Shown here: piece by piece, positions 11,472 through 30,503 of the stretch
Numbering within the stretch: position 1 is the first letter of the stretch
Layout of the letters: each line of letters begins with the position of its first letter
From: Candidatus Zhuqueibacterota bacterium
Lineage (GTDB): Bacteria > Zhuqueibacterota > Zhuqueibacteria > Oceanimicrobiales > Oceanimicrobiaceae
DNA length: 64,000 bases
NCBI GenBank assembly: GCA_029262055.1
Contig: JAJDAD010000014.1
Location: 1-64,000 of the forward strand
Reading direction: 5' to 3'
Made by a program: the position numbers and the translations under genes
Notes under the pieces: model-generated
The model's database searches: none
Told to the model about the DNA's origin: nothing
What the model saw: the letters and a program-made list of their open reading frames with translations, nothing else

Positions 11472-12425
11472 ATGTATTTTCTCGGTATCGAAGGTGGAGG
11501 AACCAAATCCGCGGGGGTCCTGATAGATCTCCCCGGTGACGCCATTTATGTTCAAAATGGTCCACCGAGTGCTCTCTCGGCGTTGGGGAAAGATGCTTGC
11601 CAAAAAAATCTGGATGAGCTCATCGGCGCAATCCTTCCGGGTGATGACCGGTCACAGGTTGCAGCCGTTACATTCGGCTTGTCCGGCGTCGGCCGGCAAG
11701 CACAGCGCCAGACTTTGCTGCAAATTGCAAAAGAACTCGGTCTCACCAGTACCAGCGTACTCACCGATGCCGAATTGCTGCATTTTTCCGCCCACAGCTC
11801 CGGACCGGGAATTGCCCTGATCGCGGGCACCGGGTCGATTTGTCTGGTAAGCGATGGCCGGGGAGACTACAAGCAAGTCGGTGGTTGGGGCTTCCTTTTG
11901 GGAGATGACGGCAGCGGTTATGACCTGGGCAAATGCGCGGTGCAGAGCGCATTGACCGAGCATGAAGATGCTCTCGGCCTGTCTGCCCTCACCAAAGCAG
12001 TGTTGCTGCATTACGGTGCGGGTACACCAACCGATTTGATATCCATGGTTTACGCAGCCGACAATCCGCAGGTTTGGCTTGCCTCATGCGCCCGGCTTGT
12101 GTGCGATCTTGCCGGGTCCGGCGAAGAGCACGCGCTCACTTTGGTGCAGGGCGTTGCCGGGCGGCTGATCGAGTTGTGTCTGCGTGGCACCAAATACATG
12201 TCACAGCGTCCCCCGCATCAGGCTGCCATTTTCGGTGGATTGTTGAGTGCTAACTCACCGGTCCGTGCGGCTTTTATGCAGTCAGTTCGGGAGAACAAAA
12301 TCATGATTGATTTGGTGGAGCCCGGCTACATCCCCGCGGCGGCCGCGGGGATGCACGCCATGCAAACGGCGGGACATGCCGTAAGCGATAAACTGCGGCA
12401 GCAACTGAGGACGCTCGTGCTTTAG
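11472..12425 (+). CDS. BadF/BadG/BcrA/BcrD-ATPase family amino-sugar kinase (N-acetylglucosamine/N-acetylmuramate kinase-like)
   Basis: 317 aa, ASKHA fold. The phosphate-1 loop GIEGGGTKSAG, the mid-protein AGTGSICLV (phosphate 2) and the signature GGWGFLLGDDGSGYDLG match N-acetylglucosamine kinases of this family; the adenosine motif IFGGLLSAN is near the C-terminus. Expected reaction: ATP-dependent 6-phosphorylation of GlcNAc and/or MurNAc in the cytosol. The neighbours (NlpC/P60 endopeptidase, dipeptide epimerase, lysA) point to cell-wall recycling, so a MurNAc/GlcNAc kinase is favoured. A glucosamine or benzoyl-CoA-type role is less likely. Confidence 0.8.
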   Translation: MYFLGIEGGGTKSAGVLIDLPGDAIYVQNGPPSALSALGKDACQKNLDELIGAILPGDDRSQVAAVTFGLSGVGRQAQRQTLLQIAKELGLTSTSVLTDAELLHFSAHSSGPGIALIAGTGSICLVSDGRGDYKQVGGWGFLLGDDGSGYDLGKCAVQSALTEHEDALGLSALTKAVLLHYGAGTPTDLISMVYAADNPQVWLASCARLVCDLAGSGEEHALTLVQGVAGRLIELCLRGTKYMSQRPPHQAAIFGGLLSANSPVRAAFMQSVRENKIMIDLVEPGYIPAAAAGMHAMQTAGHAVSDKLRQQLRTLVL

Positions 12426-15922: not shown

Positions 15923-15950
15923 CTCCGCGCGTTTACGAAAACGCGCGGAG
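15923..15950. terminator. Perfect 12-bp hairpin between convergent lysA and the CobN-like gene
   Basis: CTCCGCGCGTTT, loop ACGA, AAACGCGCGGAG, with no mismatch. It is placed between the ends of two convergent units, so a bidirectional transcription barrier is likely. No clear T-tract follows on either strand. Confidence 0.55.
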
Positions 15951-22353: not shown

Positions 22354-24519
22354 CTAGTAACTCAGGCTAAAACCACTATAGATTTCCCGTCCGGGGCGCG
22401 GTTCGAAGTCGCGTTCCGTGCGATCGAACATATTGTCGATACCGAAATGCAATTTCAAATAACGATTGAATCTCTTACCCAATCGCATGTCCCAGGTCAC
22501 GTAGCTAGGCGACCTGGAGACGGCGGCACTTTCCCCGCGGCCCGAACTGAAGAGCCAGCCGTCGTCATACTCGCCGCGCAAATTAATATTGAGGCCAAAA
22601 GGCTTGTGGTTGAATGCCAGCTTCCAGTCGGCCGTGTGACGCGAGATTCCCAAGAGCTCGTCACCCGTTTCTTTGTCCTCAGAGTTGATAAAAGTATAAG
22701 ATCCTGAGACAGAAAAGTGCTTGGCAAAATGGACTTGAACCGAGCTCTCAAGACCTTCGGTGAAGGCTTCCGCGACATTGTCGGTGACAAAAGTCAGACG
22801 GTTATCTTGCATTCCGGTAAAGTTGGACCTGATAGCGTCCTGCAGGTCGTTGCGAAAAAAGTTGGTCTTGATCAAGAAACGATCGTGCCAATTGAAATCG
22901 GCTCCCAGATTATAACTGGTCGATGTCTCCGGCTGCAAATCTGAATTGCCAAAAACCTGGTACCCCTGAGCGAAGTTGATAAAGGTGCGATGCAGGTCTT
23001 TGATTGATGGTGCCCGGAAACCCTGACCCAAAGAGCCGCGAAGCGAGAGGTTCTCGTTAGCGACGAAATGTAGATTTGCCTTTGGCGAAAGATGTGATCC
23101 AAAGGCCGAGTGGTGATCGAGACGACCACCGACTACCAGGGTCAGGGGCTCAAACAATTGAATTTCATCTTGCAAGTAAGCTACCTTTGTGTTTTCGCTC
23201 TTATGCGGGGTAGAATTGACCTCCGTTGAAACCGTACTGATTTCAACCGCATCAAACGATTCCCGGAAGGCATCCAGTCCGGCCGTAATCAAATGTGAGC
23301 CCCAAAACAGCCGATTATAAACGAGCTCGCCACGGACCTGAGATTCGTTTGTCACGGTCTGGTCTAAACGTCCACTCACTCGGAAAGATTTATCGGTATC
23401 GCGGTCATAATCCGAGGCATACGCTTTGATTTGCAGGTTTGAGCGTGTATCCGGTTTCCAGGTCAAGGCCAGGCTGCCGTGTTTGCGTTTTTCATCCGCG
23501 ACGGTATCGAAGGTCTCGCCGCTGGAGACGCTTACGGGTCGATAGGTTTCGTCATAAACATAGCCGGAGAACGTCAGTTTGGCGCTGGAGGACAGTTCTC
23601 GCGTCAGCTTTCCGGTTAGCGTGGTCTTTTCGTACGGAGACCCATCGTGCGCTACATCAGAGTCGTCGAGATCAAAGCCGTCTGAGAGGTTGCGGCTTAC
23701 CGTGAGCAAACCACCAAATCCGTTTCGGTTGAATTCAAGCGTTCCGCGCGGATCTCTTTTATCGTTGGTGCCAAAGGTAGTGGTAAAGCGTGCGGCCAAC
23801 GGTGCGCTGGCGGTTTTGGTGATAATATTAACGACACCACCCATGGCCTCGCTGCCGTACAGAGAAGAGGAAGCGCCCTTCACAATCTCGATGTGGTCGA
23901 TGCTCTCAACCGGAATTTGCCGCAGGTCGACCAAGCCGTCAGTACGGCCGATGACTTCCTCGCCATCGATCAACAGCAGGATATATTGAGCGTCGAGTCC
24001 CTGCATTTGAATGCCCCAGCCCCGGCCTTCGTTTTTTCGGATTTGCAGGCCTGCCTGTTCCTCCAACACCTCACTAATATCTTCGGCGCCGCTCTCCTCG
24101 ATCTCGGCCAGTGTAACGATATCGGTGGCAACCGGAACATCTTGTAGAGCTTTCTCCGTGCGTGTCGCGGTTACCAATATTTCATCTAATGGCAGGGCGC
24201 GTTCAGCCAGCTCAAAGTTTGCCTCAGCAGTAGCCTCCGGATGTACGGTCACTGGTACCGCCACCACCTGATAAGCAATCATCGAAGCTCGAACGCTGTA
24301 GGTTCCGGCTGGTACATGCGCAATCCTATATTCACCCTGGCGATTGGTGGCGCCGCCCAATACCGTGCCCGCAATCGTCACATTGACACTGACCAGGGGC
24401 TGGCCCGTTGCTGAATCAACCACTCTGCCGGCGATTTCTCCTTTGTTCTGGGCAAAAACAGGTGTTAGAATCAATGAAATCATGCCGATTGCCCGGCCTA
24501 TCGTTAGTTGTCTTTTCAT
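22354..24519 (-). CDS. TonB-dependent outer-membrane receptor (HmuR-like, predicted heme receptor)
   Basis: About 721 aa. A signal peptide (MKRQLTIGRAIG...FAQ) is followed by a carboxypeptidase-regulatory-like domain (about 27-105), a TonB-box-like EILVTATR, a plug domain (to about 250) and a 22-strand-type barrel. FRAPS and NSDLQPETS resemble the FRAP/NPNL motif pair of heme receptors, but the same pair occurs in many other receptors, so specificity rests on the neighbouring hmuSTUV-like genes. Start at ATG 24519 with AAAGGAG upstream. It has a 250-bp upstream leader region with hairpins. Confidence 0.85.
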   Translation of the reverse strand: MKRQLTIGRAIGMISLILTPVFAQNKGEIAGRVVDSATGQPLVSVNVTIAGTVLGGATNRQGEYRIAHVPAGTYSVRASMIAYQVVAVPVTVHPEATAEANFELAERALPLDEILVTATRTEKALQDVPVATDIVTLAEIEESGAEDISEVLEEQAGLQIRKNEGRGWGIQMQGLDAQYILLLIDGEEVIGRTDGLVDLRQIPVESIDHIEIVKGASSSLYGSEAMGGVVNIITKTASAPLAARFTTTFGTNDKRDPRGTLEFNRNGFGGLLTVSRNLSDGFDLDDSDVAHDGSPYEKTTLTGKLTRELSSSAKLTFSGYVYDETYRPVSVSSGETFDTVADEKRKHGSLALTWKPDTRSNLQIKAYASDYDRDTDKSFRVSGRLDQTVTNESQVRGELVYNRLFWGSHLITAGLDAFRESFDAVEISTVSTEVNSTPHKSENTKVAYLQDEIQLFEPLTLVVGGRLDHHSAFGSHLSPKANLHFVANENLSLRGSLGQGFRAPSIKDLHRTFINFAQGYQVFGNSDLQPETSTSYNLGADFNWHDRFLIKTNFFRNDLQDAIRSNFTGMQDNRLTFVTDNVAEAFTEGLESSVQVHFAKHFSVSGSYTFINSEDKETGDELLGISRHTADWKLAFNHKPFGLNINLRGEYDDGWLFSSGRGESAAVSRSPSYVTWDMRLGKRFNRYLKLHFGIDNMFDRTERDFEPRPGREIYSGFSLSY

Positions 24520-24600
24520 CACGTTTTCTCCTTTCGCGATCAACCGAAATTCGCTTGATCTTTAGCGCTGATATTGTATATTGCAAACAGAAAAGGGCGG

Positions 24601-24771: not shown

Positions 24772-24930
24772 CTAATTGTTTGACTTCGAAGTCATTATTT
24801 TGTTGAGTTCACATTTCGCGCATCCCTCTTTTGCGTCTTCACCACGCGTGAACTGCCTGATGAACTTACGACCTGTGTACAGGGCTGCGATCACCACCAA
24901 TGCAAATACGACTATTTCCTGGATTCCCAT
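24772..24930 (-). CDS. FeoB-associated Cys-rich membrane protein
   Basis: 52 aa, beginning MGIQEIVVFALVVIAALYTG and ending SKSNN. One transmembrane helix (about residues 4-19) is followed by a basic stretch and a CxxC pair (GCAKCEL). This is the layout of the small Cys-rich membrane proteins that follow feoB in many bacteria. It starts 2 nt after the feoB stop. It probably supports Fe(II) transport through FeoB. Confidence 0.85.
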   Translation of the reverse strand: MGIQEIVVFALVVIAALYTGRKFIRQFTRGEDAKEGCAKCELNKIMTSKSNN

Positions 24931-24932
24931 AT

Positions 24933-27092
24933 TCACCCCAGCCCCAGGGCGATGCCACCCTGGTACACGATGAGTGACCCAAGATAGGCCATGGCGGTCA
25001 TGTATGCGACCATAATGACGGGCCAGCGCCAGCTATTGGTTTCGCGCCGTACGATTGCCACAGTTGACATACATTGGCATGCGAAAACAAAGAACACCAT
25101 GAGCGAAACCGCCACCAATGGCGTATACACGGGTTGTCCGGTTTCCGGATCCACCTCGTTGCGGAGAATTTCCCTGAGGGTCTGCGAGTTCTCATCTGCG
25201 TTTTCAACGTTGTAAATGGTAGCCATCGTGCTGACCAACACCTCCCTGGCGGCAAACGAGGTGATGAGGCCAATCCCCATCTTCCAGTCGAAGCCCAGCG
25301 GTCGGATCACCGGTTCGATCACTTGCCCGAGCTGGCCGGCGTAGCTTTGCTTAATAGCCTGACTAGAATTAAGATGGTCCGCTCTGGGATAGGATGACAG
25401 AAACCACAGTACAATAGAAATTGCCAGAATGATTTTGCCCGCAGTCATCACGAAAATTCGCGCACGTTCAAACATTTGCAGCAATATCCAGCGCAACGAT
25501 GGCATGCGGTAAGGCGGCAATTCCATTACGAAAGTAGAAGGTCTTTGCTTGCGGCCAAGGAAGCGTGTAAAGACAAAAGCGGCCACAACAGCACCAAAAA
25601 TACCGAGAAGATAGAGTGCCAGCAGGACAAGCCCGGGCAGCGTAAAGATACCAAGCACCGCCGTAGCAGGGACAAAAGCACCTATGATCAGGGCATAGAC
25701 CGGTAGTCTGGCGCTGCAGCTCATAAGGGGGGCGATCATGATAGTCACAAGCCGGTCCCGCGACGCGGATATGGTGCGGGTGGCCATGATTCCGGGGATC
25801 GCACAAGCAAACGAAGAAAGCAGCGGAATGACCGAGCGACCGCTCAAACCCGTACCGCGCATGAGCCGGTCCATGATGAACGCAACGCGGGCCATGTAGC
25901 CGGTATCTTCCAGCAGAGAAAGGAAAAAGAACAAAAACAGGATTTGTGGCAGGAAGACCAGGATTGCACCAACGCCGGTGATGGCACCGTTGACCAGAAG
26001 GTCTTCCAGGACACCGTCCGGCATGACAGTCGCAACCTGGTCCCCGGCCCAGGTGACCAGGCTGTCGATGGCGGCCATCGGTACTTCCGCCCATGAAAAG
26101 ATGGATTGAAAAATCAGGGCAAACAGGATGAGAAAACACAGAGGCCCGGCTACCCGATGGGTGAGCACTTTGTCGATTATCTCGGAAAACCGGGGTCGCT
26201 CTTTACCTGTTTTCTGAATTACGTCACGACAAATCTCATCGACCCATTTGTAGCGTAAGTTCGTTTCAAGTGTTGTCCAGTCTAGTTTTTGTTGTTGCAG
26301 GCCGTCCCGGCTCGCAGCCACCAACGTCGAGAGGCGAGATTGTTCTCGTTTCATCTGACCATTTGTGGTGGTCAGCCATTTTTCCAGGGCTACATCGCTG
26401 GAGACGATCCTGACGGCCTCCGACTGACTGGCAGTGCCATGCATGCCTGCATTATCCCGCAACCATCCAGCTATTGGTTCGATTACGTCTGAAACGTCAG
26501 TCCCTATCTTCATTGCGGAGCCGCCAGTATTGCCATTCGGTCGGAAAGCCATCGACAGAATTCTGTCTTTCAGCTCGGGTATTCCGGTCCTTTTGTTGGC
26601 TACCAGAGAGATGACGGGACAACCCAGCCTGTCAGCAAGCTTGCTGGTGTTCAGCTCAATGCCGCACTGTGCCGCAGCGTCCATCATATTGGCCGCCACG
26701 AGTACGGGCAACCCAAGTTCAATAACTTGAGTAACCAGGTACAGGTTGCGACTTAAGTTGCTGGCGTCAACCACCACAACAACCAGACGCAGGTTACCGA
26801 GTGCGTTCGAGTGTCCATGAACGATATCAGACGCAATTTTGTCGTCAAGGGATTTAGGGATGAGACTGTAAAGGCCAGGCAGGTCGTGGACTCTAACTTC
26901 CCGGCCGCCACCGTGGATGCGGCCGGTTTTCTTTTCAACCGTTACGCCTGGGTAATTCCCGACCTTCTGTCGCAGGCCGGTGAGTGCATTGAAGACCGTG
27001 GTTTTTCCAGCATTTGGATTGCCAACAATCGCAATATCAACCGCCTCAGGCGTCTGCTTATTTTGCTCCGAAAACTGGGCGCGGTCAGTCAT
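24933..27092 (-). CDS. feoB: Ferrous iron transport protein B
   Basis: About 719 aa. The N-terminal G domain has GNPNAGKTT (G1), DLPGLYSL (G3) and a G4-like NMMD. It is followed by the helical GDI-like region and two Gate domains with multiple transmembrane helices and conserved segments such as PLLSSFACAIPGIMATR and FACQCMSTVAIVRRE. It imports Fe(II) across the inner membrane in a GTP-dependent way. Start at ATG 27092 (GTG 27095 also in frame). feoA lies just upstream, so Feo is complete with the small partner downstream. Confidence 0.96.
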   Translation of the reverse strand: MTDRAQFSEQNKQTPEAVDIAIVGNPNAGKTTVFNALTGLRQKVGNYPGVTVEKKTGRIHGGGREVRVHDLPGLYSLIPKSLDDKIASDIVHGHSNALGNLRLVVVVVDASNLSRNLYLVTQVIELGLPVLVAANMMDAAAQCGIELNTSKLADRLGCPVISLVANKRTGIPELKDRILSMAFRPNGNTGGSAMKIGTDVSDVIEPIAGWLRDNAGMHGTASQSEAVRIVSSDVALEKWLTTTNGQMKREQSRLSTLVAASRDGLQQQKLDWTTLETNLRYKWVDEICRDVIQKTGKERPRFSEIIDKVLTHRVAGPLCFLILFALIFQSIFSWAEVPMAAIDSLVTWAGDQVATVMPDGVLEDLLVNGAITGVGAILVFLPQILFLFFFLSLLEDTGYMARVAFIMDRLMRGTGLSGRSVIPLLSSFACAIPGIMATRTISASRDRLVTIMIAPLMSCSARLPVYALIIGAFVPATAVLGIFTLPGLVLLALYLLGIFGAVVAAFVFTRFLGRKQRPSTFVMELPPYRMPSLRWILLQMFERARIFVMTAGKIILAISIVLWFLSSYPRADHLNSSQAIKQSYAGQLGQVIEPVIRPLGFDWKMGIGLITSFAAREVLVSTMATIYNVENADENSQTLREILRNEVDPETGQPVYTPLVAVSLMVFFVFACQCMSTVAIVRRETNSWRWPVIMVAYMTAMAYLGSLIVYQGGIALGLG

Positions 27093-27103
27093 CACTGGTA
27101 CGT

Positions 27104-27331
27104 TCAGGCCTTCTTGACCATAATGGCTTTTGCTTCGGCACAGCGGATGGACAGATGATATCCGCGCACCTCCACTTCCAGCGGGTCGCCAAGTGGTGCA
27201 AATTTGACCAATCTAACCGGCGTTCCGGGGGTCAGCCCCATCTCCGCCAAGAGACCTGCGTCAACGTTGCCGTTCATGACTTTCTCAATGACCGCGGTTT
27301 CATCTTGTTTTAGTTCTTTTAAAGCCAACAT
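27104..27331 (-). CDS. feoA: Ferrous iron transport protein A
   Basis: 75 aa, a small SH3-like protein with GLLAEMGLTPGTPVRLVKFAPLGDPLEVEVRG, the usual FeoA core. It acts on the cytosolic side with FeoB. It stands 12 nt before feoB and 17 nt after the small membrane-protein gene, in one leftward operon. Confidence 0.93.
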   Translation of the reverse strand: MLALKELKQDETAVIEKVMNGNVDAGLLAEMGLTPGTPVRLVKFAPLGDPLEVEVRGYHLSIRCAEAKAIMVKKA

Positions 27332-27348: not shown

Positions 27349-27903
27349 TCAGCTTTTGACCTGGCTAAGCTTCATTTCTCGCTTAGTTATGTGAGGAGCA
27401 TCGTTTGTAAAGACGGGTTTGGTGTTTCCGTTCCGGCCCCGTGTAAAGCGCGCTACTTCAAAAATGAGAAATCCAATGACCGCTTGAAAGGATAGAAAAG
27501 AGACGATTTTGAGGATCGCAAATTCCGGCCTGACAAAACGGACAAGCCAACCGGATCCTTCGTTGAGCAACGCAAAGAGAAAGCCACTGACAATAATGAA
27601 GACTTTGACTCGAAATGAATAGGGAGTGAAGATAAGCAAGTGAGTCAACAGCAAGACAACCATCGCGATCATGGGCAGATGAGAGTGGCTGACTTCGAGC
27701 ATCGATTGATAGGTGCGTGGCATCTTGAACAGTTCTTCAGATCCCAAATAGTAGTTCCGAACAGATTGGGTGGTGAAGTCCATTTTTGCCAAATAGAGCG
27801 CAAAATTGCTTACCCAGAAAGCGGTCATAAACACCATGGTCAAAACCAGTGTAAGCCGCATAAGCGGTTGGCTTTGAAAACCGCCTTGTTGCATGTACTT
27901 CAC
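27349..27903 (-). CDS. Unknown membrane protein with about four transmembrane helices, paired with FMN-binding protein
   Basis: 184 aa. Hydrophobic segments occur near residues 15-38, 75-92, 97-112 and 130-148. The second starts with HSHLPMIAMVVLLLTHLLIF, whose histidines could ligate heme b. The GTG start overlaps the FMN-binding gene stop by 4 bp (GTGA) and has GGAGGAG upstream. I do not recognise a family. Its tight coupling to a secreted flavoprotein suggests an electron-transfer or assembly partner in the inner membrane. Confidence 0.6.
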   Translation of the reverse strand: MKYMQQGGFQSQPLMRLTLVLTMVFMTAFWVSNFALYLAKMDFTTQSVRNYYLGSEELFKMPRTYQSMLEVSHSHLPMIAMVVLLLTHLLIFTPYSFRVKVFIIVSGFLFALLNEGSGWLVRFVRPEFAILKIVSFLSFQAVIGFLIFEVARFTRGRNGNTKPVFTNDAPHITKREMKLSQVKS

Positions 27904-28466: not shown

Positions 28467-29768
28467 CTAGAACAGGTAATTGACCGCGAGATTGAATTGA
28501 TCGACAGCAGTATTCCCTTCGTTATCGCGATTGATGTAGTCTGCCTTGAATGCAACGTTGGGGTGCGGCTTATATCTTAACCCAAGGCTCAGGTTTGTTC
28601 TCTCCCGGGCCGGATTCTTGGCAAAGCCCGTCGGAACTTCGTCCTGAGTGTTGAATTGTTCGTACTGGATGAACGGCGCAAGAGAGTGCGTTGTGCCAGG
28701 CATAAGCAAAGGCAGAACGTCATAGGCAGCCGTAAGGTAGAAACCGTTCTGTGTTTCACCGATGCTCTTGCTGCCGCTCAGTCCGAGGGCGCCATTCAAA
28801 CGTGCAACATCGTCTATTGTCGACTGCGCGAACAAGCCGCGCAACTCCAGGCCCCGCCTTTCGAGTGTAAAATGCAGTGCGAACATCGTCACTGAAGCGT
28901 CTATATCAGAGCCGGTCGAATCAACCATTGCCTGGCCGGTGTTGCCCAGAAAAAATGAGCCGCCAAAGTCCAGGCCGGGAATGCCGGTGTAGTTGAGGCG
29001 ACCGGTCACAGCCAGATCTTCTGCAATGGCTTTGCTACCATTTTGACGACCACTGCGAATACCATTGGAAGAGAACCGCGATGCGTCAAGGCTTTCCGTT
29101 ACGTAAAGTTTGTAGCCAATTCCGGTTTTAGTGGCACCTACAAATCCAAAGCCGTTAGCACGCCACGTGGACGGGATAATTCTACGCTCAGCTTCGGGTC
29201 GCAACGACCCATGGAAAGTCGGGGGTTCGTGCAGCTCGTTGACGATTCCAACCGGCATGAGGAGCATTCCTGCCCGGAAGTTGATCGCAGGATGTAGCTG
29301 GGCCTCAATGAACCCGAATTCAACCGCAACTTCTCCTTCGGCGCCTTCTGCGGTCTTGGCGTGCTCAAACTCAATCTCTGAGTTGAAGAGGAGCCACTCG
29401 TTGAACCGATAGCCAAAGTAGACGATACTGCGCAGGAAGTCGATTTGATTTGTCGCACCTGAAGCGCTGCCGTCATCCCGGTCTTCAGAGAAGTTCTGGT
29501 ATACCATTTCGCCATAGCCGGCGACTGACACGCCGCTTTGTTCTACCTGATAAATCCTTGAGGCGGCAGGCCCCATTCCATACTGGCTTTCGTATTCCTG
29601 ATTTGCCACAGCCCCAAGTTTTGTCTTTTCGATTTCTTCAGTAAGCAAGTCAAGCCTTCGCATTAGCTCTTTTAGCGTGTCTTGTTTCGTTGGTTGTTGC
29701 GCCAGCACAAGCTGTGGAATAGTGACGAGCAAAAGCAGTGCCAGGCTGAAAAACAGAGAGCGTTTCAT
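28467..29768 (-). CDS. Outer-membrane porin-like beta-barrel protein
   Basis: 433 aa. A signal peptide (MKRSLFFSLALLLLVTIP...LAQ) is followed by a short coiled-coil region (DTLKELMRRLDLLTEEIEK) and then alternating amphipathic strands ending in NLAVNYLF with a terminal phenylalanine, as expected for an outer-membrane barrel. Segments such as LGLRYKPHPNVAFKADYI are typical of porins. Start site GGAGGAAC is strong. It is the first gene after the promoter at 30106-30134. The solute is unknown; iron chelates or an electron-transfer complex partner are possible. Confidence 0.8.
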   Translation of the reverse strand: MKRSLFFSLALLLLVTIPQLVLAQQPTKQDTLKELMRRLDLLTEEIEKTKLGAVANQEYESQYGMGPAASRIYQVEQSGVSVAGYGEMVYQNFSEDRDDGSASGATNQIDFLRSIVYFGYRFNEWLLFNSEIEFEHAKTAEGAEGEVAVEFGFIEAQLHPAINFRAGMLLMPVGIVNELHEPPTFHGSLRPEAERRIIPSTWRANGFGFVGATKTGIGYKLYVTESLDASRFSSNGIRSGRQNGSKAIAEDLAVTGRLNYTGIPGLDFGGSFFLGNTGQAMVDSTGSDIDASVTMFALHFTLERRGLELRGLFAQSTIDDVARLNGALGLSGSKSIGETQNGFYLTAAYDVLPLLMPGTTHSLAPFIQYEQFNTQDEVPTGFAKNPARERTNLSLGLRYKPHPNVAFKADYINRDNEGNTAVDQFNLAVNYLF

Positions 29769-30073
29769 TTAAAGTTCCTCCGGTCGTTAAGATTTTCGAT
29801 CAGTGCAGCTTGAACCGCAAGAAACATGGATTTGAGCTGTGGTTAACCAATTGACTTTGCCCACTGTTTTTAGTACCATTACGGTGGAACGTTGGTGTGG
29901 TTGTCATCATTTCCAGCGAATCCAATAGCGCATCAGCAAGCCGCAATCTTGTTGGTGCGTTTTTACTTACGGTATTTTAGCCTGATCGAGTTTACAAAGT
30001 TAGAATAACCAGTTACGAACTTTCCCAGAAATGAGAAAGCTACCAAATGTTAATAATCGTTCCGATTACGATA

Positions 30074-30094
30074 AACTGAGACTCGGTCTCAGTT
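30074..30094. promoter_or_regulatory. 21-bp perfect palindrome, predicted operator
   Basis: AACTGAGAC-TCG-GTCTCAGTT, nine-base arms with no mismatch. On the leftward strand it spans about +5 to +25 relative to the predicted start, a classic place for repressor binding. The sequence is not a typical Fur box; the length and symmetry would suit a DtxR-, Rrf2- or TetR-type dimer. No regulator gene is linked. Confidence 0.65.
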
Positions 30095-30105
30095 ACGACA
30101 TCGCA

Positions 30106-30134
30106 ATCTTACAAATCCAATTCTCGAATGTCAA
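30106..30134 (-). promoter_or_regulatory. Sigma70 promoter for the leftward iron/heme operon
   Basis: On the minus strand: TTGACA (30129-30134), exactly 17 bp, TAAGAT (30106-30111). The -35 is perfect and the -10 matches four of six bases. Transcription would start near 30099 and run left to the porin gene. Confidence 0.7.
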
Positions 30135-30183: not shown

Positions 30184-30503
30184 GCTAAGCTTGGCAGGGA
30201 AGGTGGCATCCTGGGCTAACAGGATCGTAGTGCACTTTTCATATTTGTGGCCGCGTTTTCATTTTGAAAAGCCGCAGCCATAAAAAGAGCCTGGTATAGT
30301 AAGTTCATTCGTGTCGCCAAGCTTGAATCTAAGACGGGCATAACGATCTTAGATCTGTATAAATAATATGTTACAGAAAGTCAGTTTGTTCTGCGATCCT
30401 GCCAAGGGTAGTTATTGTGGCCATTTGGTCAAGTGGCATCATTTTTGTTAGAAAAAGAGAATAATTCCGATTCTTATTTCCAGATTTGTTCCGGAGTAGC
30501 TGC

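Follow-up and report, generated by a model that had tools for sequence, protein, structure and literature searches.

A diverged Fur box as the probable operator of an iron-uptake operon in an uncultivated KSB1 lineage

The window, that is, the whole 64,000-nucleotide stretch that was analysed (from the genome called G000 here), holds a promoter on the minus strand, a palindrome directly behind it and an operon for iron uptake. The relevant features are the following.

30129-30134, minus strand: -35 hexamer TTGACA, read from the sequence and kept with a 17-nt spacer in relatives
30106-30111, minus strand: -10 hexamer TAAGAT, read from the sequence
30074-30094, no strand: Element A, a perfect 9-3-9 palindrome with the 15-bp core TGAGACCGAGTCTCA; candidate Fur-type operator
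30050-30068, minus strand: Element B, TAATCGGAACGATTATTAA, a second conserved leader element, defined by conservation in relatives
29769-30099, minus strand: untranslated leader of about 330 nt, the first gene starting only at 29768
28467-29768, minus strand: first gene, an outer-membrane beta-barrel (porin-like) protein of 433 aa
27900-28442, minus strand: FMN_bind-like secreted protein of 180 aa (sub-threshold Pfam match)
27349-27903, minus strand: small membrane protein of 184 aa, no known family
27104-27331, minus strand: FeoA-like small protein of 75 aa, assigned by inspection of its sequence
24933-27095, minus strand: FeoB ferrous iron transporter (TIGR00437, above cut-off)
24772-24930, minus strand: small Cys-containing membrane protein of 52 aa after FeoB, assigned by inspection
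22354-24543, minus strand: TonB-dependent receptor, assigned by class and not by substrate

The candidate operator overlaps the predicted start region of the porin to FeoB operon. The gap before FeoB is occupied by FeoA, and no remnant of a DtxR gene was found in the leader or before FeoB. The TonB-dependent receptor is likely co-transcribed with the iron-uptake genes; a terminator-like site lies past its gene, at 22339-22313. The heme genes, from hemA onward, run rightward from 30486 or 30504 and start about 390 bp away. The first-pass annotation had placed an "iron/heme operon" under repressor control; the heme part falls away with this separate divergent start, whereas control of the iron-uptake operon is supported by the conserved position of the site, by like sites at other iron genes of a sister genome (G003) and by an alternative operator in relatives that lack Fur.

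The left-pointing TTGACA-17-TAAGAT promoter proposed in that annotation is exact in sequence and coordinates on the minus strand, with a spacer of 17 nt, and transcription is predicted to start near 30099. Read on the minus strand from 30094 to 30074, the palindrome is AACTGAGAC-CGA-GTCTCAGTT; its 9-bp arms (30074-30082 and 30086-30094) are 100% complementary and stand 3 nt apart. The same annotation had described a perfect 21-bp palindrome at about +5 to +25, which is likewise exact and which, taking +1 near 30099, we place at about +6 to +26. To meet one perfect inverted repeat as large as this in 64 kb is unremarkable: such repeats occur at four places in the window and at 0-4 places in shuffled sequences (mean 1.7). 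Two GC-rich perfect inverted repeats lie at 12329-12353 and 15923-15950. Promoter-like matches are equally ordinary, with two in the region against a shuffle mean of 2.1. The combination of palindrome and promoter goes beyond chance because of its position and its conservation in relatives, and not because of the repeat or the promoter score alone. With up to three mismatches allowed, the full palindrome has one match in the window (0.02 expected) and no other in the 5.7-Mb genome, in which a reversed control pattern matches three times. The idea that G000 has a regulon with many copies of the exact palindrome was accordingly rejected, given the single copy and near matches that fall within or next to unrelated coding sequence; scattering of copies at random, which the first-pass annotation would have counted against an operator, is not a question that arises with one full copy.

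For comparison, the porin orthologue was located in seven other genomes of the family. In G003 (assembly 89% complete, 8% contamination) the orthologous operon begins with TTGACA-17-TATACT, followed by AATTGAGAT-TTA-ATCTCAATT and then Element B. This palindrome differs from that of the window by two changed pairs, both of which preserve the symmetry, and the distance from the -35 hexamer to the palindrome core is 43 in both genomes; Element B, too, keeps its distance, 66 bp from the -35 in both. A DtxR/MntR-like gene stands between the G003 promoter and the porin, with ATGTTTTAATATTAAAACAA ahead of the gene. G001 and G007, which belong to one genus, have an exact Element B but lack the palindrome; both features are missing in G002, G004 and G005, and the G006 leader was left out because its contig ends there. 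Conservation of the palindrome, for which a comparison with relatives had been proposed, is thus partial: G003 retains it, G001 and G007 lack it, and the Fur-less genomes have another repeat in its place.

The whole module occurs a second time in G003, where it precedes a gene for an Fe(III)-binding ABC transporter protein (named futA here on the basis of its sequence). When G003 was searched genome-wide with the pattern AAYTGAGAYNNNRTCTCARTT, the three best matches (0, 1 and 2 mismatches) were the leaders of the operon, of futA and of a fur-like gene, and the other two matches with 2 mismatches overlap long open frames; the pattern was written after the G003 sites had been seen, so the ranking speaks to specificity and does not amount to a blind test. 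All ten 3-mismatch matches in G000 overlap long open frames. The copies that could form a regulon are those at the operon, futA and furB in G003, and those at the operon and, as a weak half-site only, at furB in G000. A search for a G000 orthologue of the Fe(III)-binding protein returned only a relative of 26% identity. Elsewhere in G000, at C41:5367-5387 (L195), a weak palindrome-like sequence, AATTGAAATGACAGCTCAAAT, lies close to where a methionine sulfoxide reductase-like gene begins.

Element B sits 23 bp further into the leader than the palindrome. G000, G001 and G007 share it letter for letter, and G003 has two near-identical copies, one of them at C133:1591-1609; in the form TAATCGGAACGATTNTTAA it lies 63-68 bp from the -35 in all five leaders from these four genomes. 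A standard PerR box is TTATAATNATTATAA, and Element B does not read as one. Further copies were sought and rejected: matches to TAATCGNNNCGATTA are enriched in Fur-less genomes too, and those inspected are coding, including pstA and a xanthine dehydrogenase-like gene.

Fur-family proteins (PF01475) are present in G000, G001, G003 and G007 and absent in G002, G004, G005 and G006. G000 encodes two above cut-off (C32:32435 and C32:51822), which represent two types. A PerR-like Fur is found in all four Fur-bearing family genomes and keeps the HYH ligands in the aligned copies; that of the window's genome is FurA (G000:C32:51822). The other type, FurB, occurs in G000 and G003 only. FurB of G000 (C32:32390-32842; PF01475 E-value 5.9e-21) has both CxxC pairs, CMRC and CNEC, and lacks the HxH regulatory ligands, reading WKPNGYLVC where others read HYHxxC. 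Its G003 counterpart (C90:7465-7881) keeps the CxxC pairs, and both the HxH and the NHS histidine are missing. Among 63 genomes of the class queried with FurB, the G003 protein is 45% identical and the next best only 30%, so close FurB relatives are confined to G000 and G003, and within the family these two alone carry the palindrome. Both furB promoters have TGAGAYTGAAT right after the -10, although the G000 site is only a half-conserved match. That the palindrome tracks FurB while Element B tracks the PerR-like Fur is suggestive only, as such correlations of regulator and site come from few genomes (seven informative ones) that are related to each other. FurA belongs to the same superfamily, keeps its HYH ligands and occurs in genomes with Element B, yet G001 and G007 have PerR-like Fur proteins and no palindrome.

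The palindrome resembles a Fur box, an inverted repeat with TGATAATNATTATCA and TGAGAATNATTCTCA variants. Fur boxes have a 7-1-7 pattern and tolerate sequence change, with 50-80% identity to the consensus across bacteria (PMC7536154). Element A shares a 15-bp core with TGAGA...TCTCA ends and likewise lies over the start of an iron-uptake promoter, but its inner bases differ (TGAGACC-G-AGTCTCA). Against the canonical TGANAATNATTNTCA it scores 12/15, which taken alone is not significant (P = 0.30); the G003 site scores 13/15. Two acidobacterial relatives of the operon, found by a search with the porin, have textbook Fur boxes (TGAGAATGATTCTCA, TGAAAATGATTTTCA) directly after the promoter, in the position of Element A. 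These boxes, TTGAGAATGATTCTCAA in L114 and TTGAAAATGATTTTCAA in L112, match the consensus at 15/15, which not one shuffle out of 200 attained, and each of the two genomes has a Fur gene. Of two relatives with Fur in the class, G027 has a Fur-like match of 14/15 and G052 is borderline. Element A is probably a divergent Fur box. The promoter differs from a standard Fur-box promoter in having a second conserved element after the site.

A different repeat occupies the porin leader where Fur is missing. Wherever the leader of a Fur-less genome could be read (eight genomes: G002, G004, G005, G021, G030, G033, G042 and G050), it contains a TTGTTTTAATATTAAAACAA-like repeat, with 15-19 of 20 positions matching and shuffle P <= 0.03, the motif having been chosen from the very leaders scored. 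Among the Fur-bearing genomes, eight in number, a clear match (19/20) is limited to G003, where the DtxR-like gene is present as well; G052 has a weak one (15/20), and the G000 leader has none (best 11/20, P = 1.0). The DtxR/MntR-like gene is part of this operon in G002, G003, G004, G005 and G006 and divergent from it in G030, and the repeat may be the operator of this accompanying gene. In Fur-less KSB1 relatives (L005, L014, L015, L017, L009 and others) the porin leaders contain TTGTTTTAATANTAAAACAA-like inverted repeats, which probably serve a DtxR/MntR-like regulator as its operator. DtxR/MntR-type proteins repress feo-type operons in response to metal, a trait that the palindrome's presumed repressor would share, but their associated repeat differs in sequence, and gene and repeat are both missing at the G000 locus. 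In another G000 locus (L139, C54:30000-46000), a DtxR-type regulator (C54:36640) lies upstream of a second feoB-like gene and a distant porin paralogue downstream of it.

From the computed layout, its conservation, the other G003 sites, the acidobacterial Fur boxes and the exchange of repeats in Fur-less relatives, we infer that the site is bound, which protein binds it, that iron is the signal and that the effect is repression and not activation. The palindrome is probably the operator of a Fur-superfamily repressor, a diverged Fur box likely bound by FurB, at the operon of porin, FMN_bind protein, membrane protein, FeoA and FeoB. A Fur-type dimer, or two, would sit on the initial transcribed region; the site overlaps the first transcribed bases, so that in its metal-loaded state the repressor, once bound, would obstruct RNA polymerase as long as iron suffices, and would free the promoter upon iron shortage. 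FurB, the most likely binder, also appears to repress its own promoter through the related, half-conserved site, an autoregulatory-looking arrangement familiar from Fur repressors. The main weakness of this Fur reading is that FurB does not have the HxH regulatory ligands of a typical Fur repressor. Other ligands may serve it for sensing, or the sensing of iron may fall to FurA while FurB has a different role.

Three other explanations bear on the same observations. The palindrome could work as RNA, a 5' hairpin of the mRNA (with a small Element B hairpin) that stabilises the leader or acts as a post-transcriptional switch. The transcript does fold into two neat hairpins, that of the palindrome at -10.5 kcal/mol, a value matched by no shuffle; the pairing survives the G003 changes, and inverted repeats directly follow the promoter in Fur-less relatives too. 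However, the futA copy as RNA hardly folds (-1.3 kcal/mol) although one DNA half-site is intact, the first 66 nt of the leader are not unusual as a whole (z -1.5), and an Rfam search of the leader gave no match near threshold, its sole match being sub-threshold and due to chance. Action as DNA is favoured because the futA copy keeps a half-site while barely folding and because the sites at that position in the acidobacterial relatives are textbook DNA operators, and we regard the RNA explanation as unlikely. An operator for another type of regulator still encoded in G000 (DtxR/MntR, Rrf2, TetR or other), the choice offered by the first-pass annotation, seems similarly improbable. The atypical metal ligands of FurB, the DtxR/MntR-like regulators that accompany the same operon in relatives and the DtxR-type gene beside the second feoB-like locus speak for it; against it stand the absence from G000 of both the in-operon DtxR-like gene and any TTGTTTTAATATTAAAACAA-like match, and the likeness of the site to the Fur boxes that a different phylum has in this position. 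The regulator classes named in that annotation are probably wrong for G000; a DtxR/MntR-like protein does seem to act in the relatives, but through another operator, which is missing from the G000 leader.

Alternatively, iron control might run through Element B alone, possibly with the PerR-like FurA as its binder, and the palindrome would be incidental. The near-invariant sequence and spacing of Element B are in keeping with such a role, and so is its distribution: the family's four genomes that encode a PerR-like Fur have it, and G002, G004 and G005 do not. The palindrome, however, is kept in G003 through compensating changes and recurs at futA and partly at furB, whereas Element B has no further convincing copies and related 15-mers occur in Fur-less genomes as well, making this account very unlikely.

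If the palindrome is indeed a diverged Fur box, it provides a concrete, testable site and regulator for iron control in an uncultivated KSB1 lineage, and raises the issue of how a Fur protein devoid of the usual sensor ligands responds to iron. The kind of switch is already known; what is added is a divergent member with an evolutionary series around it. We tentatively suggest, as a possibility that the sequence comparisons raise, that the iron-import operon keeps its promoter spot across phyla while the repressor is exchanged: a canonical Fur box in Acidobacteria, a DtxR/MntR-like site in Fur-less KSB1 genomes, both in G003, and in G000 a diverged Fur box with an HxH-less Fur and a new element. 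A literature search for cases in which Fur and DtxR replace each other at a single operon found nothing usable. If the suggestion is right, the genomes line up from Fur only through both to DtxR/MntR-like only, a natural series in which to follow how a metal switch can be swapped while the operon stays under control.

At 30256-30270 the window has a second palindrome, TTTTCANNNTGAAAA, upstream of the divergent hemA. Its placement upstream of hemA is conserved in G000, G002, G004 and G005 (copies outside the window are at L003:1204, L005:1277 and L008:1215); in G007 it lies upstream of the porin, with no hemA found nearby. It occurs in genomes with and without Fur and is possibly an operator of the heme operon.
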